A DNA stretch of 64,000 nucleotides, taken from the NCBI RefSeq assembly GCF_032714615.1, contig NZ_JAWDKA010000009.1, positions 1 through 64,000 on the forward strand. Reading direction: 5' to 3'. Made by a program: the position numbers and the translations under genes. Shown one piece after another: positions 15,570 through 21,313 of this stretch; position 1 is the stretch's first letter; each line of letters opens with the position of its first letter. The notes under the pieces were generated by a model. That model ran no database searches. It was not told the DNA's origin and saw only the letters and a program-made list of their open reading frames with translations. The stretch comes from Methanorbis furvi. Lineage in GTDB: Archaea > Halobacteriota > Methanomicrobia > Methanomicrobiales > Methanocorpusculaceae.

Positions 15570-15642
15570 GCCGCCATAACTCAGTTGGTAGAGTGGCTGG
15601 CTGTTAACCAGCATGTCACAGGTTCGAGTCCTGTTGGCGGCG
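15570..15642 (+). tRNA. tRNA-Asn (GTT)
   Basis: The acceptor stem pairs GCCGCCA with TGGCGGC. The D-arm has TCAGTTGGTAGAG, the anticodon arm reads CTGGCTGTTAACCAG with anticodon GTT, and the T-arm has GGTTCGAGTCC. It is 73 bases with no intron and no encoded CCA. A T-rich tract follows directly (CTTCTTTTGTTTTG), suggesting termination. Confidence 0.97.
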
Positions 15643-15996
15643 CTTCTTTTGTTTTGTTTGTTATGATTTTTTTTGTAAGGAAATTACGCACCTGTACGAA
15701 AAACTATTTTGAAAATACTTGGAATCATGTTTTCTCCAAAACAAAATTTCTCTGCCGCAGACCAGTACTCATTTTGTGAAACTGCGCCAGCATTCGTTTC
15801 GGCTGTCTATGATTGCGATTTCGGTTTTGCGCTTTTTTGTGTTTTCCTGATATTTTTCTGAAAATGTGTATTCCTGTAAGACTACTCACCCCTTGGAATC
15901 GCTTCTGAAAAGGAAATGATACGCGTCTGGATCAGCGTACTGCCGGTGTTTTTCACGGCCGATTGAGGGATATTTGAGAATAACTGTCCAATGATC
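15643..15996. other. Intergenic region left of the transposon
   Basis: After the T-rich tract behind tRNA-Asn there is no convincing gene. A minus-strand open frame reads into this region from the transposon's left end, but its start would lie inside the element. The region ends at the target duplication TTCCGAC (15997-16003). Confidence 0.5.
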
Positions 15997-16003
15997 TTCC
16001 GAC

Positions 16004-16107
16004 GGGCGTTGCACCTTTAATCTGAGTTCACAGTGAATATTAGTGCAAGCCTCAAAATAAAGGTGCAAAATACTGAATAAAAGTGCAAATCAATTTTGCA
16101 CCTTTAT
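16004..16107. repeat. Left transposon end: terminal repeat plus subterminal motifs
   Basis: GGGCGTTGCACCTTTAATC (16004-16022) is the terminal repeat. Further copies of the core are ATAAAGGTGCAA (16057-16068), ATAAAAGTGCAA (16077-16088) and TTGCACCTTTAT (16096-16107). A degenerate TTAGTGCAA lies at 16040-16048. The copies occur in both orientations, as expected of multiple transposase-binding sites. Confidence 0.85.
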
Positions 16108-16138
16108 TCCACTAATCAAAAAAAAAAGAAACAGAAGT

Positions 16139-17326
16139 TCAAACCTCAGCCGCATTTGAATCATTTTCGACTCTCAAGTTTACCGATAAGAAATCAGGTT
16201 GAACCTCATACATTAGCATAGCCTTGTTTACCACAGTGAGATTGTAGGCAATCAGCTTACAGTAAAGCTCATTGATCTGGGCACATTTATTTTTCGACTT
16301 CAATGTTTCCCCTAATTTCTCTTTTATACAAGAAAATGTAGTTTCTACATTTGATCTCAGATGATAGTGGGAATAGAATTCCTCTGGATTTTCCGTGAAC
16401 CTCTGATGGGCATGATACCATGCCGGAGAACCACGTGCAAGACTTCTATCACTTTTCCTAAATGGAATGAATGCCGCAATATCTCTATCCTCTGCAAACT
16501 GTAGATTATAGCGTGCGATGTAGCCCTTATCTGCATACACTTCAGCCGCATCAAAAATTTCCATAGTATTTCCAAGTAATTCTCTGAACTCAAGTACATC
16601 TGATGCATTTCCATCAGTAATTTTTGCATCGGTGATGATATTGGTCAGAACACCACTTGCGATATGCGCCTTTAACCACACATTTTTTACCTTTACACGA
16701 TGCTTTTCTGGCATCCATGAGTTGTAAGCAGTCGTTCTGAATCCTGACGAATCGATTGCAAACTTGGTCTCAAGAGGGCTTAGTGGTAAAGCAGACAAAC
16801 GCAACATATCCCTCAGATGAACCGTCACATCCTCCCTATTAAGGAATTTTGAGATGGCATTGAAGTGCGGAGCACGATTAATGATGCTCATATTTTCCAC
16901 CATCTCCATCAGACCTGCGGAATATCTGGATGCACGATTCGAATACACTTTCAGAATTGCACAGTAGAGGATGTCTTCGTTTTTCAGTTTTGGTCTTCCT
17001 CTTCCGGTCTTCTGTGGAATGTATTCTGCATCAATGGATGAATCACCCATTCTTTCCGCACCAACCTTACAAAGTTCTGGTAAAAGAACCTTGATGACGT
17101 GTTGGTGTTCTCTGACTTCTGCTTCATTGTATCTAGCCCAATCACGCCGCACATGCTCTCTTGATGGATTGGTATGCTTTGCCTTCTCTTCTTGTGCCTG
17201 TTTTTCTCGTGCAATTTGGTTTGCTTCCCTCATTTGTTCACGGTGAAGTTTTTCCTTCATGCGCGCGGCCTTCTTCATACGGAGTAAGCGTTCATACGAT
17301 TGGTCAATTGTAATTGAAATGGACAT
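16139..17326 (-). CDS. DDE transposase (IS5/IS1182-like)
   Basis: This 395-residue transposase has a long basic coiled-coil N-terminus (residues 1-75, rich in KK, EK and RE), a helical domain, and an RNase H-like core. The catalytic acids are visible in FAIDSSGF (first Asp), VYADKGY (second Asp) and SNVETTFSCIKEKLG (Glu with the Y/E-K spacing of DDE_Tnp_1). It looks intact, with a GAGGG Shine-Dalgarno seven bases before the ATG. It is encoded at the left end, reading toward that end. The 4.7-kb element is large for a single-transposase IS. The family assignment is from motif memory. Confidence 0.9.
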   Translation of the reverse strand: MSISITIDQSYERLLRMKKAARMKEKLHREQMREANQIAREKQAQEEKAKHTNPSREHVRRDWARYNEAEVREHQHVIKVLLPELCKVGAERMGDSSIDAEYIPQKTGRGRPKLKNEDILYCAILKVYSNRASRYSAGLMEMVENMSIINRAPHFNAISKFLNREDVTVHLRDMLRLSALPLSPLETKFAIDSSGFRTTAYNSWMPEKHRVKVKNVWLKAHIASGVLTNIITDAKITDGNASDVLEFRELLGNTMEIFDAAEVYADKGYIARYNLQFAEDRDIAAFIPFRKSDRSLARGSPAWYHAHQRFTENPEEFYSHYHLRSNVETTFSCIKEKLGETLKSKNKCAQINELYCKLIAYNLTVVNKAMLMYEVQPDFLSVNLRVENDSNAAEV

Positions 17327-17403
17327 TTTATATCCCTCAAATAACTATAATGTAGCTATTCATATTTATAATATCATATTGTGACAAAAACCACGATGGA
17401 TAT

Positions 17404-17421
17404 ATTTAATAGCTATTAAAT
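17404..17421. promoter_or_regulatory. Perfect palindrome in divergent transposon promoter
   Basis: ATTTAATAGCTATTAAAT is an 18-base perfect palindrome located between the divergent transposase and DUF2080-type genes. It overlaps a TATA-like TATATTTAA. It could be an operator for an element-encoded DNA-binding protein controlling both directions. Confidence 0.5.
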
Positions 17422-17444
17422 AGCATAAGGAAGTAGGGATAAAT

Positions 17445-17672
17445 ATGACAAATAGAGAGAAAGCGGAAATAAAATTGAGCGGTTATGCCATGGTGGAAAA
17501 AATGGTGAAAGCTGGAACGAACACATCAGGGCGTGTTTATGTTCCTAAATCATGGATTGGGAGAAGAGTAACAGTAGTTCTACTCGATGAGCCTGGGGAT
17601 GATGTGGTAGATGATCGGATGAGAAGAATGGTGTATGGGGAAGAAGATGATGGGTTTAGGAGGATGATTTAG
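17445..17672 (+). CDS. Transposon-associated small protein (DUF2080-like)
   Basis: The 75-residue protein has the core VKAGTNTSGRVYVPKSWIGRRVTVVLLDEP, which resembles AbrB/SpoVT-type swapped-hairpin proteins and the DUF2080 family of archaeal transposon-encoded proteins. Members are usually found beside IS transposases. A regulatory DNA-binding role is likely. It is divergent from the transposase with 118 bases between them, and GGAAGTAGGG lies before the ATG. It is the best candidate to bind the palindrome at 17404-17421. Confidence 0.8.
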   Translation: MTNREKAEIKLSGYAMVEKMVKAGTNTSGRVYVPKSWIGRRVTVVLLDEPGDDVVDDRMRRMVYGEEDDGFRRMI

Positions 17673-17715
17673 ACTTTACACCAACATGAAAAAATGTGCG
17701 AGTTTCTAATTTAGA

Positions 17716-18345
17716 TTAGAATGGATTCCAATCTGGATTAAAAAATACCATTTCGGATTCGTTTGGTGTTGATTTTCTTGAATTAGTTTTGTTATCAGAA
17801 GACTTAGTCTTTGTTGATGATTTAGGCTTATTTGACGTCGTTGGCGATTTAGGTTTGTTTGAGATAGTAGGTTTATTGCATTTGAGTTTTTCAAGATAAT
17901 CAGGGTCGCTGTGATTTCTCGAATCTATGACTTTCTTAAATAATTTGCCATGATAACTCCTATTTTCTAAAATGCAATCGTTGACATAACTGTATGTGTT
18001 TTTTTTCTTTTCATTTTTAGAGGGACGACTGTCATATATTAGCATACTTTCTGCCATATCAATTATTTCATTCATATCACATTTACTAATAGTTTCAACA
18101 ATACCCATCCTAACATATTTAGTACCACCACGATCATCTATCCATTCCTCATAATGGCGTTTCAATCTACCTCTTATCCCACTACCTCCGCTAGATTTTC
18201 CAATATATATTAATCGCTCATTTTCTCCTTTTTTTGAAGTAATACAATATAATCCTATGTGGATTGCATTGGGATCATCGATCACGTCACGAATCGGTCT
18301 AGGTTTTTTCCATGTCACTGTTATTTGTCTAAGTTTTGCACACAT
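17716..18345 (-). CDS. GIY-YIG nuclease-domain protein
   Basis: The 209-residue protein shows GIY-YIG landmarks in order: GLYCI (31-35), LIYIGKSS (about 44-51), RGRLKRHYEEW (about 57-67, catalytic Arg), a conserved Glu in DMAESMLIYD (about 93) and Asn in SYVNDCIL. The C-terminal 60 residues are low-complexity Lys/Ser/Thr/Pro repeats (KPKSPTTSNKPKS). The domain occurs in homing, repair and restriction enzymes. Here it is transposon cargo, so roles in target cutting, transposition or defence are all possible. Composition is AT-rich like the rest of the element. Confidence 0.75.
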   Translation of the reverse strand: MCAKLRQITVTWKKPRPIRDVIDDPNAIHIGLYCITSKKGENERLIYIGKSSGGSGIRGRLKRHYEEWIDDRGGTKYVRMGIVETISKCDMNEIIDMAESMLIYDSRPSKNEKKKNTYSYVNDCILENRSYHGKLFKKVIDSRNHSDPDYLEKLKCNKPTISNKPKSPTTSNKPKSSTKTKSSDNKTNSRKSTPNESEMVFFNPDWNPF

Positions 18346-18415
18346 GATATGCTCAAGTGAGTTATTGTGTCCACGACATATTTAAATGTATATTAGTTTT
18401 TGGTATTGAATAATT

Positions 18416-18733
18416 ATGACATCAGAAGAATTAACTCGTAAATTAACAAAAGATGAATTTTCAAAATATCATCGATTTGAAACGACATATTACGATACAG
18501 TAACACGAAAATATGATAGAATGAAGTGGGTTATTAAAAAGAATCCAAAAACTGGAAAATATACAGAAGGTGGTTATGAATATAATGAGCGTCTTGGAAA
18601 ATATGTTTTAATACAACCCTTTGATGAAAATAATGAAATGTCGGTAAGGGACACCATTAATAAGTGGATTGTGGGTGCTAAGAAAAAAAATATCCAGCAC
18701 GAAGCAGGTCATATTACAAAGGGTTATTATTAA
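18416..18733 (+). CDS. Transposon cargo protein, unknown (105 residues)
   Basis: The small basic protein (MTSEELTRKLTKDEFSKYHR and onward) has many Lys, Tyr and Glu residues and no membrane segment. It ends KNIQHEAGHITKGYY. HEAGH resembles the HExxH-type zinc-binding pattern of metallopeptidases, but the protein is too short and otherwise unlike them, so I do not claim activity. A TATA-like ATATTTAAATG lies near 18378-18388. It is divergent from the GIY-YIG gene with 70 bases between them. I do not recognise a family. Confidence 0.6.
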   Translation: MTSEELTRKLTKDEFSKYHRFETTYYDTVTRKYDRMKWVIKKNPKTGKYTEGGYEYNERLGKYVLIQPFDENNEMSVRDTINKWIVGAKKKNIQHEAGHITKGYY

Positions 18734-18910
18734 TCCATTATTCTTCGTTGATAATATTTCCACACACCTTTTTTACATATTCGGATCATCCTCGATTTCC
18801 TGAGCTATCCTCACCGACCTTGTACATAATGTGATCACTTTGCACATTAAGCCAAATTGTCCGTAAATTCACAAACCCATAAATAAGAAAAAAATGATTA
18901 TCCACACAAC

Positions 18911-19258
18911 TTATATTCCCATACGTTTCTCTTTGTCTGAACCCATATCATAGAGTTCCCTAATTTCCGATTCGTGTCCGGCTATGTAATAAGCATCAGT
19001 TATACATTTTTGCTTCAATGCGCGATACTGAGCATATCCTGTGGTTGACATCTCCTCGGTGGGATATACTCTACCATCGCAAAAACCATGTACATAACCA
19101 AAACCCATATGTGCAAGATATACAGCATCGAAACGATTCTCTCGCACAGCATGATTCATGATAAATGTCCAAATTCGCCCAGTAAGAATTTCATCCCCCA
19201 TGAGGGAAAGGTATTCTTCAGTAGTCAATTCTTGTTTCTTCTTTAAAAAACCCATCAT
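18911..19258 (-). CDS. Transposon cargo protein, paralogue 1 of a tandem pair
   Basis: The 115-residue protein begins MMGFLKKKQELTTEEYLSLM and shares a clear pattern with the next gene: KK..ELTxEE(Y/F)..LMG, then GRIW..(I/L)M..A...NRFD..YL...G..Y..GF, then YP.E..S..G.AQ...L...C...A.YIAG.E.EIR..Y. This points to a duplicated alpha-helical family. No known domain is recognised. The shorter copy lacks the C-terminal extension of its neighbour. Confidence 0.68.
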   Translation of the reverse strand: MMGFLKKKQELTTEEYLSLMGDEILTGRIWTFIMNHAVRENRFDAVYLAHMGFGYVHGFCDGRVYPTEEMSTTGYAQYRALKQKCITDAYYIAGHESEIRELYDMGSDKEKRMGI

Positions 19259-19290
19259 AATAAACTACCCAATTTATTAAATTTATAATA

Positions 19291-19749
19291 TTATTTATTA
19301 CATTTATCATTTTGTTTACTCTCCTCTATATCTGATTCTCTCAGATGTGATGTTAGAGCCTTTAAACGCTCCATATTGTCAATTATTCTCTGTTCTTCAT
19401 TTGCATCTGATTCTTTATGGGGTGAACTTAGGCGAAGGGTAGCATAGTGTAATCTAATTTCCAATTCGTTTCCTGCTATGTAGTCAGCAGAGGATTTACA
19501 CCGTTCGACCAACATCTGCCATTGAGCACTTCCCCTCGGTGATGACTTTTCACAGGGATATAACAAACCCCAGTAAAAACCACCCAGATAAGCAAGACCT
19601 ACAGTCGTAAGATACTCAGAGTCAAAGCGATTGTCATCGAGAGCAATAGTCATAAGACATCCCCAAATACGTCCAAGACGATTTTCATACCCCATAAGGT
19701 AAGAAAATTCTTCATTCGTTAATTCTCCTTTTTTCTTAAATAATTCCAT
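19291..19749 (-). CDS. Transposon cargo protein, paralogue 2 of a tandem pair
   Basis: The 152-residue protein is a paralogue of the preceding product, with the same LTxEE(F/Y)..LMG...GRIW core followed by a charged C-terminal extension of about 45 residues. I chose the ATG at 19749 (MELFKKKGELTNEEF), which aligns with the paralogue's start and follows GAGGTG, over a TTG five codons upstream. Its start lies 12 bases after the stop of the upstream membrane-protein gene, so the three minus-strand cargo genes form an operon. Function unknown. Confidence 0.7.
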   Translation of the reverse strand: MELFKKKGELTNEEFSYLMGYENRLGRIWGCLMTIALDDNRFDSEYLTTVGLAYLGGFYWGLLYPCEKSSPRGSAQWQMLVERCKSSADYIAGNELEIRLHYATLRLSSPHKESDANEEQRIIDNMERLKALTSHLRESDIEESKQNDKCNK

Positions 19750-19760
19750 GGTAAAGCACC

Positions 19761-20042
19761 TCAATTTTTCAGAATTTTTTCAATCTCTTTTTGTTCTTTT
19801 AACCACTGTCTAACATCGGATTTTCCAACTTCATAGTAAGCATGGCAAATGGGGCAATCGATTCTATATTTCGTGGAAATGGGAAATACAAAAATCGGAA
19901 TTATGAAGAAAACTAGAATAAAATACCAAGTGCGTTGACGTATAAATTTGTAATTCACATTATTATGACAATGTGTACAGTTACGATGGGATACATCTTC
20001 ACTAAGAATTCTCTCATAATGTCGTGTGAACCATATGATCAT
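19761..20042 (-). CDS. Transposon cargo membrane protein with two Cys pairs
   Basis: The 93-residue protein has CTHCHNN (about residues 22-28), one hydrophobic span (WYFILVFFIIPIFVFPIS) and then CPICHAYY. The two CxxC pairs flank the span in sequence and could form a zinc ribbon only if the chain folds back. Otherwise each may act alone. It is the first gene of the three-gene cargo operon, with a strong GGAGG eight bases before the ATG. Its link to the two paralogous downstream proteins suggests a small membrane-associated system. No family assigned. Confidence 0.68.
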   Translation of the reverse strand: MIIWFTRHYERILSEDVSHRNCTHCHNNVNYKFIRQRTWYFILVFFIIPIFVFPISTKYRIDCPICHAYYEVGKSDVRQWLKEQKEIEKILKN

Positions 20043-20251
20043 TTCTTATTCCTCCAGTAACGAATCAGTCCATCACGGCAAACACACACGTAATAACATC
20101 GTAAATATTCAGTTTGCGCATGATCGCCTCTCTATCATTATCATTGTCGGATTATGTCTAACGATGGATATACAAAACATGGTTGTTTGTTAAACATTAA
20201 ATAAACATCGTTTGACCTAAGATAATCTCCGTAACATGGCTATATGTATAT

Positions 20252-20554
20252 ATGGCAAAAGTGGAAATGATCGGTATCCGTGTTCCCACAGATTTATTGG
20301 ATAAGATAAATGCTCTAAAAGATGCAGAGGGGGTAGATAGAACCGCGATTATCCTCCGAGCGTTGAGGTATTGGGTTTCCATCGAGGGTAAAGTGACGAC
20401 TGACAATGAATATCTGAATAGAATAACATCCATTGATCAGAATGTAACTGAAGTTGCTTTGGGAGTAAAGAACATGCAGGAGTTGAAGGACTTGGTGATG
20501 GAGCAACAGAAAACTATCAACACACTGTTACGTTTGATCCCAAAAGAAGAGTAG
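20252..20554 (+). CDS. Ribbon-helix-helix protein (CopG-like)
   Basis: Residues 1-47 (AKVEMIGIRVPTDLLDKINA, then DRTAIILRALRYWV) match a ribbon-helix-helix DNA-binding domain. The C-terminal half is helical and may oligomerise (LKDLVMEQQKTINTLLRLI). It sits at the right end of the transposon, reading outward. It may regulate the cargo or bind the element ends. No toxin partner is adjacent, so a toxin-antitoxin role is not supported. A short AT-rich leader with TATATGTATATATGG precedes the ATG. Confidence 0.82.
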   Translation: MAKVEMIGIRVPTDLLDKINALKDAEGVDRTAIILRALRYWVSIEGKVTTDNEYLNRITSIDQNVTEVALGVKNMQELKDLVMEQQKTINTLLRLIPKEE

Positions 20555-20608
20555 ACTATTGATCTTTCTTTTTTCGTTGTTTGTTGTAGGCAAATCTGCC
20601 ATTGCCGA

Positions 20609-20683
20609 ATAAAGGTGCAGATTGGTGATTAAAGGTGCAAAATAGGGATTAAAGATGCAGACCTGAATAAAGGTGCAACGCCC
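20609..20683. repeat. Right transposon end: subterminal motifs plus terminal repeat
   Basis: Four copies of the core occur in one orientation: ATAAAGGTGCAG (20609-20620), ATTAAAGGTGCAA (20628-20640), ATTAAAGATGCAG (20648-20660) and ATAAAGGTGCAA (20667-20678). They are spaced about 19 bases apart. The terminal repeat ends in CAACGCCC at 20683. The regular array differs from the mixed-orientation left end. Confidence 0.85.
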
Positions 20684-20807
20684 TTCCGACGAACAGGTTT
20701 AAGTATACGTATGCCAAATATGATATGTTCTTCTGCAAGGGAACAAATTTCTTTCGGGAAGCAGATTCTTCTGCACTCCCATTTTCTGTATTAACTACCA
20801 TAGCATT

Positions 20808-20879
20808 GGGCCTGTAGCTTAGTGGTGGAGCGCCCGGCTCATAACCGGGTGGTCGTGGGTTCGAACCCCTCCGGGCCCA
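20808..20879 (+). tRNA. tRNA with CAT anticodon (Met elongator or Ile2)
   Basis: GGGCCTG pairs with CGGGCCC through one G-U pair. The anticodon arm is CCCGGCTCATAACCGGG, and the T-arm GGGTTCGAACCCC is canonical. The length is 72 bases with no encoded CCA. Initiator-specific consecutive G-C pairs are not in the expected orientation, so this is an elongator Met or a lysidine/agmatidine-type Ile2 tRNA. The sequence alone does not decide which. Confidence 0.93.
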
Positions 20880-20978
20880 TTTCAAGGAATGTATTTTCAC
20901 GTTTTTTCCGGTGTTGTACTTTTGATTCAGTAGATCACATCCCACATCATTTTAACCGGTGAGCGACTCATTATATAT

Positions 20979-21275
20979 GGGACTAGTCCGGGTGGCTTGG
21001 CGTCACCTGTAACCTGAAACAGCCAATATGCAGGGGACGAAGTTTGAGGACGGCTGTGGCAGTCCAACTGACGCGACATATTCTGACGTTGATACCTCGT
21101 CCTGTGAGGTCAGCGGCGATGACGGGCACATCCGGAGGGATGTGCTGGCATCTCGTCGTGGGCACCGGTTCAGGCCCGGAAGGGAGCAGACCTACTGTGA
21201 ACGCATGGCGCCCACAGGGTTGCGGGGCGGAGAAGGGGTATGTCAGAGAGGCTGGATATGCGCTTTCAACCGATA
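20979..21275 (+). ncRNA. ffs: Signal recognition particle (7S) RNA
   Basis: Archaeal SRP RNA is recognised by the helix 3/4 region GGCGTCACCTGTAACCTGAA and by the universally conserved SRP54-binding loop GGCCCGGAAGGGAGCAGACC near 21174-21193. It scaffolds SRP19 and SRP54 for targeting membrane proteins. The length of about 300 bases fits archaeal members. Ends are approximate: a TTTTAA at about 20951 and a TTATATAT at 20971 are competing TATA candidates. Confidence 0.93.
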
Positions 21276-21313
21276 ACATGTCCCATCTCTTTACTTTTAC
21301 GAGGTGTTTCTTT

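Follow-up and report, generated by a model that had tools for sequence, protein, structure and literature searches.

A window of 64,000 nucleotides from the methanogenic archaeon Methanorbis furvi (contig NZ_JAWDKA010000009.1) contains a cargo-carrying transposon, both ends of which bear arrays of a repeated motif. The element encodes one DDE transposase, a small companion gene divergent from it and six cargo open reading frames (ORFs), listed here with the borders of the element.

16005–20682, unstranded: whole transposon, 4678 bp, 36.8% G+C, ends taken from the duplication and the terminal repeat
15996–16004, unstranded: left 9-bp target site duplication CTTCCGACG, read from the sequence and present as a single copy at the empty site of genome G070
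20683–20691, unstranded: right 9-bp target site duplication CTTCCGACG, likewise read from the sequence and single at the G070 empty site
16139–17326, minus strand: DDE transposase of 395 aa with D192, D266 and E328, of a putative IS903-related clade, without a SWIM zinc finger (PF01609, 1e-16; alignments, tree, model)
17445–17672, plus strand: DUF2080 companion of 75 aa, divergent from the transposase (PF09853, 8e-5; NF033496, 2.6e-9), in a slot occupied in many relatives
17716–18345, minus strand: cargo, possible GIY-YIG nuclease of 209 aa (PF01541, E = 0.018, below cutoff)
18416–18733, plus strand: cargo, ORF of 105 aa without a Pfam or NCBIfam match
18911–19258, minus strand: cargo, ORF of 115 aa, paralogue of the neighbouring 157-aa ORF (48% identity)
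19291–19764, minus strand: cargo, ORF of 157 aa, paralogue of the 115-aa ORF
19761–20042, minus strand: cargo, zinc-ribbon-like protein of 93 aa (PF17032, 3e-4, below cutoff)
20252–20554, plus strand: cargo, ribbon-helix-helix (CopG) protein of 100 aa (PF01402, 1.1e-5, above cutoff)

The original prediction, made from the sequence alone, had placed a transposon with cargo at 16004–20683, bounded by a 7-base duplication and near-perfect 19-base terminal repeats. The element was borne out, whereas its limits moved to 16005–20682 and its terminal inverted repeat, GGCGTTGCACCTTTA(A/T)TC, which reads GGCGTTGCACC, is identical at 17 of 18 positions. The 7-base duplication gave way to one of 9 bp, CTTCCGACG, on both sides of the element. 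Both readings are possible because target and terminal bases share letters, the 7-bp version being an alternative parse of the same junctions, and we chose 9 bp because 44 related elements show exact 9-bp duplications. A search for an uninterrupted target found an orthologous empty site, ATGATCAACCGACGAACAGG, in a Methanocorpusculum relative of the same genus (genome G070, locus L042), where the joined flanks align without a break across the junction at 86% identity; the transposon therefore inserted at this site. Its G+C content is 36.8%, against 48.5–48.8% in the flanks. A genome search revealed no other copy in the element's own genome, in which it is therefore single-copy; a perfect motif match at G000:C6:86618 proved to be a lone site with no element around it. 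The insertion sits between two uninterrupted tRNA genes (15570–15642 and 20808–20879), just upstream of an archaeal signal recognition particle RNA gene at 20976–21287 (window 15570–21287).

PF01609 is the sole recombinase type in the element. The best NCBIfam model for the transposase is IS5_2, at 132 bits just under the naming threshold of 140, and both matches place the protein in the IS5 family (DDE_Tnp_1). The IS1182 transposase profile reached only 36.7 bits against a cutoff of 270. The single IS5/IS1182-like DDE protein that had been predicted is thus single and of IS5 type, but not IS1182-like, and the nearest simple insertion sequence (IS) tested is IS903. The element contains no AAA+ gene and no TnsB/TnsC or MuB-like gene, so the suggested resemblance to Tn7- or Mu-type elements holds as an analogy only.

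Array geometry in the window element and its relatives

The ends of the window element were scored with the terminal motif GTTGCACCTTTA (scores out of 12; offsets counted from the respective end), which gave the following sites.

16005–16022, plus strand: left (transposase-proximal) terminal inverted repeat, motif site at offset 4 (16008–16019)
16038–16049, minus strand: inverted site, offset 34, weak (8/12), canonical family position
16058–16069, minus strand: inverted site, offset 54 (11/12), canonical position
16078–16089, minus strand: extra inverted site, offset 74 (10/12)
16095–16106, plus strand: extra direct site, offset 91 (11/12)
20610–20621, minus strand: extra direct site, distal-end offset 62 (10/12)
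20630–20641, minus strand: direct site, distal-end offset 42 (11/12), canonical position
20650–20661, minus strand: direct site, distal-end offset 22 (9/12), canonical position
20665–20682, minus strand: right (distal) terminal inverted repeat, motif site at offset 4 (20668–20679)

The distal (right) end carries four copies in one orientation at offsets 4, 22, 42 and 62. On the proximal (left) end the terminal copy at 4 is followed by three inverted copies, at offsets 34, 54 and 74, and then by a direct one at 91. The regular four-copy array foreseen on the right was therefore found, whereas the left end has four internal copies and not three. The two ends together (194 bp) contain 8 sites scoring at least 9/12, where the remainder of the window predicts 0.09, and a chance origin of the arrays was rejected. 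The claim that such multi-site ends are unlike those of simple IS elements was borne out. All four canonical positions are filled at 8/12 or better.

Relatives were collected from genome searches, from a GTDB-based collection (337 relatives, 80 kept) and from IMG/VR (24). A single-sequence scan of the GTDB-based collection returned no relatives, and all 337 came from an alignment-based scan. To set boundaries, the surroundings of each homologue were searched for an inverted terminal match enclosed by exact direct repeats of 6–10 bp. Among terminal matches of 14/18 or better, 52 loci had a 9-bp duplication, 2 had one of 8 bp and 2 one of 10 bp; a further 7 loci had 6 bp and 12 had 7 bp, and some in these last two classes may be 9-bp elements whose ends were placed a few bases off. 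We defined 45 distinct elements, admitting L109 and L145 despite weaker terminal matches, and analysed 44 after one orthologue was dropped (the window element and 43 others). Each of the 44 is flanked by an exact duplication of 9 bp and has terminal repeats of the GGCTTTG type; lengths are 2462–7338 bp. Within the repeat, positions 2, 3, 6 and 7 never vary at either end (G, C, T, G), whereas positions 8–12 do. Even the smallest element, of 2462 bp, bears cargo, as do all the others; related ends flanking a transposase alone were looked for and found in none of the 44 bounded elements.

Arrays were scored only once the ends had been fixed by duplication and terminal repeat, taking the end upstream of the transposase as distal and the transposase side as proximal. 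At the distal end, direct copies occupy offset 22 in 41/44 elements and offset 42 in 35/44; at the proximal end, inverted copies occupy offset 34 in 37/44 and offset 54 in 30/44. Distal-direct hits numbered 89 against ~7 in shuffled controls and proximal-inverted hits 76 against ~6 (controls gave about 5–7 per class). Altogether 143 of 176 canonical sites are filled, compared with a mean of 4.6 and a maximum of 10 for random offsets. The geometry is kept across 27 clusters with transposase identity below 60%; in 15 of these at least one element has the full set of four sites. Among 69 held-out loci, unused in defining the pattern, 16 showed the proximal layout with scores of 16–22, the best control reaching 12. 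The 16 include another element of the same genus (L019), its terminal repeat likewise starting GGCGTTGC. The sequence of the motif varies with the transposase while the geometry of the arrays stays constant.

PF01609 was found in 45/45 family transposases, and an N-terminal SWIM zinc finger in 40/44 by pattern and 32/45 by Pfam. Predicted structures were confident for the greater part of the catalytic domain (mean pLDDT 83–84), and their best PDB match was the ISCth4 transposase (E = 1.8e-5, with a low TM-score). The family occurs in many archaeal lineages and some bacteria, the bacterial members lying on contigs binned as Acidobacteria, Nitrospira, Eremiobacterota, Myxococcota and others; most relatives are on contigs of metagenome-assembled genomes (MAGs), and host assignments, bacterial ones above all, may include mis-binning. 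The class suggested by the original prediction thus held up as a distinct clade but not as an exclusively archaeal one.

Some loci show adjoining or compound arrangements. At L064:54-10647 two different members adjoin, with the target TAACTCTTA occurring three times (target, element, target, element, target) and the transposase of the first element interrupted. At L086:110-5042 there is a tandem pair of 2462-bp copies with TCATGCAGA flanking each; unless the assembly is at fault here, target immunity is unlikely to be strong. A same-genus element from goat-gut MAGs (L017:8344-13059 and L018:8238-12749) carries two different transposases in one element, one with a SWIM finger and the other without, at the same site in both; between the two genomes the transposases are almost the same, while one cargo ORF differs (40% identity).

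Cargo and companion genes

Elements whose transposases are 79–91% identical have essentially no cargo in common, the few distant matches (20–35% identity) being mostly restriction-modification (R-M) proteins. Cargo thus varies while the ends are conserved, the outcome that the original prediction had proposed to look for, and these comparisons show that cargo is freely exchanged between family elements. The commonest Pfam families in 127 ORFs were N6_Mtase (10), N6_N4_Mtase (7), Eco57I (7), HSDR_N_2 (6) and Methylase_S (5); HNH, MamI and GmrSD nucleases were also present, and a PADLOC ranking of the cargo likewise put methyltransferases high. In 20/44 elements a methyltransferase motif lies in an ORF of 200 aa or more, a raw count made by pattern only, of which one or two may be false. 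A less well supported conclusion is that the cargo of the family is often defensive. The window element speaks against it: none of its six cargo proteins had a PADLOC match, and a defence assignment for this cargo was rejected. Its GIY-YIG protein and 157-aa ORF had no homologue in the other sampled genomes of the order (150 searched, own genome included), and the only homologue of the 115-aa ORF in the order sampled was the neighbouring 157-aa ORF.

The small gene divergent from the transposase is labelled transposase-associated by NCBIfam in its DUF2080 form. An origin of the companion from antitoxin-type regulators is suggested by a DUF2080 protein that was validated as antitoxin to a nuclease toxin (PMC10440598); the companion is probably an antitoxin-type small protein with a regulatory role. 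Elsewhere in the family a zinc-ribbon companion with the signature CP(K/N)..C.SPYWN.PR adjoins the transposase, in archaeal as well as viral/bacterial contigs (two tested, with no Pfam family above cutoff).

L079:7407-7601, minus strand: zinc-ribbon companion
L115:7498-7659, minus strand: zinc-ribbon companion
L138:7222-7476, minus strand: zinc-ribbon companion
L139:7361-7549, minus strand: zinc-ribbon companion
L159:6918-7100, minus strand: zinc-ribbon companion

Two further cargo proteins, at L061:11095-11922 and L064:239-1054, are related (38% identity) and by eye resemble proteasome-beta-like Ntn hydrolases; the former had no PADLOC match.

Recognition of the ends and relation to known systems

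Internal sites matched the terminal motif of their own element at 8.05/12 and those of other elements at 6.24, the maximum of 1000 permutations being 6.68, and motif distance tracked transposase distance (Mantel r = 0.53, 0/2000). The simplest reading, we infer, is that the transposase itself binds the arrays. Between L061/L064a and L063/L064b, 15 of 24 fixed transposase differences fall at aa 151–250; that this region, a putative helix-turn-helix with the start of the catalytic domain, concentrates the differences between motif groups is suggestive only. In the model we propose, the transposase would bind the terminal and subterminal sites cooperatively via its N-terminal DNA-binding part, and differently at the two ends, giving an asymmetric paired-end complex that would cut the ends and join them into a 9-bp staggered target. 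If several sites were required at each end, a transposase acting as a single protein could locate two unlike ends far apart and bring them together, and this pairing would allow kilobases of cargo to be carried. Less well supported is the part of the small divergent gene, which may act as an antitoxin-type regulator of the transposase. We assign a probability of about 0.8 to the explanation as a whole, that is, a distinct cargo-carrying clade related to IS903 (IS5 family) whose asymmetric multi-site ends are bound by its one DDE transposase. Several observations weigh against it. The correlation between motif and transposase could come partly from shared descent, and 12/44 elements have at most two canonical sites at the cutoff used. 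Groups that differ in their motifs have almost the same SWIM finger, which is thus unsupported as the motif reader, and the window transposase, which has none, keeps its arrays nonetheless.

The arrays could instead be operators of the small divergent regulator (DUF2080, AbrB or ribbon-helix-helix), which would cover the ends to repress transposition while the transposase used the terminal repeat only, as in IS903. This accords with the small DNA-binding-type gene found divergent from the transposase in many elements and with the fact that IS903 works without arrays. However, companions of unlike folds (DUF2080 in L055, RHH_5 in L057, AbrB-like in L059 and L084; of ten companions run against Pfam 3/10 were above cutoff, and companions beyond these ten were classed by eye) go with the same motif and with transposases 81–90% identical. 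A companion whose fold can be exchanged while motif and transposase are kept is not the protein that reads the motif. The divergent promoter showed no motif enrichment (21 sites against 24 expected), on which ground a promoter-operator role was rejected, and the arrays stand at fixed distances from the cut ends. We consider the operator explanation unlikely.

A still smaller chance attaches to the arrays being bound by a host architectural or regulatory protein, or being functionless relics of repeated end duplication. One or two sites are indeed missing in some elements, but exact spacing and opposite end orientations are kept across the 27 clusters in archaea and bacteria, and the sequence of the sites changes along with the terminal repeat; element-specific motifs of this kind are not expected from a host factor or from decay. 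A composite structure, in which an older insertion was split by unrelated IS ends, would fit the orphan, low-G+C cargo of the window element and the tandem and adjacent insertions at L086 and L064. It is nevertheless extremely improbable, given one transposase, one matching end pair with the canonical asymmetric geometry and a single 9-bp duplication, and the G070 empty site, from which the entire unit including its interior is missing, contradicts it.

Among the simple IS elements tested, IS903 is the closest to the clade. IS903, pulled from IMG/VR via its terminal repeat, is 1057 bp long, has 9-bp duplications in most copies and carries no array at the canonical positions. Like the clade, the IS903 group has a homologous DDE catalytic domain (matched by the clade profile at E ~1e-21) and a 9-bp duplication, and its ends, GGCTTTGTTGAATAAATC, fit the terminal consensus of the clade; the terminal repeat of the window element is itself of the IS903 type, GGCTTTGTTG...AAAT. 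IS903 and its four relatives (~1.05 kb), however, consist of a transposase only, without arrays, cargo or a SWIM finger, in contrast to the 4678-bp window element with its arrays and cargo. In a tree with few outgroups, IS903, ISSod12, ISPpa3, ISPko1 and ISPpa8 grouped apart from the clade with 100% support, as an outgroup on a long branch, so that the window transposase falls outside the IS903 group; together with the second transposase of L017, also without SWIM, it lies at the poorly resolved base. Transporter IS (tIS) elements combine an IS-type transposase with passenger genes between IS-type ends, whereas the present family has cargo in 44/44 bounded elements and specialised array ends.

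The family has been concealed under the annotation 'IS5 family transposase', and a search of the open-access literature, which did not extend to ISfinder listings, found no description of it; cargo transposons with such patterned ends are apparently undescribed so far. According to a 2019 survey of thaumarchaeal mobile elements, no composite DNA transposon carrying passenger genes had been detected in archaea (PMC6563490). The fixed end geometry provides a simple rule for the boundaries of an element and hence for its cargo, and because the motif varies while its placement does not, the way in which a one-protein transposase recognises its ends can be tested directly. For such a system the nearest mechanistic parallel, a comparison of how the two may work, is the eukaryotic hAT element Hermes, in which one transposase with an N-terminal zinc-binding domain acts on subterminal repeats rigidly spaced on asymmetric ends (PMC10368747); its transposase belongs to a different superfamily, and the window member has lost the zinc finger.

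Tn7-like elements resemble the family in their asymmetric ends, with arrays of ~20-bp transposase sites, and in cargo rich in R-M systems (PMC8649781, PMC13370975). They differ in using TnsB with TnsC and other proteins where the family uses a single PF01609 transposase, and the proximal sites of the family are inverted relative to the terminal one, unlike those of Tn7-like elements, whose transposases were not found in archaea in a 2021 survey (PMC8649781). The family carries varied cargo, many R-M systems included, in many archaeal lineages and some bacteria. We would give even odds that it constitutes a distinct single-transposase multi-site cargo class, an archaeal counterpart of the bacterial Tn7-like elements in moving R-M genes and defence genes of other kinds, in which the paired ends have a rigid, asymmetric architecture and the sequence specificity is interchangeable, and it looks like an overlooked vehicle for defence genes between microbes.

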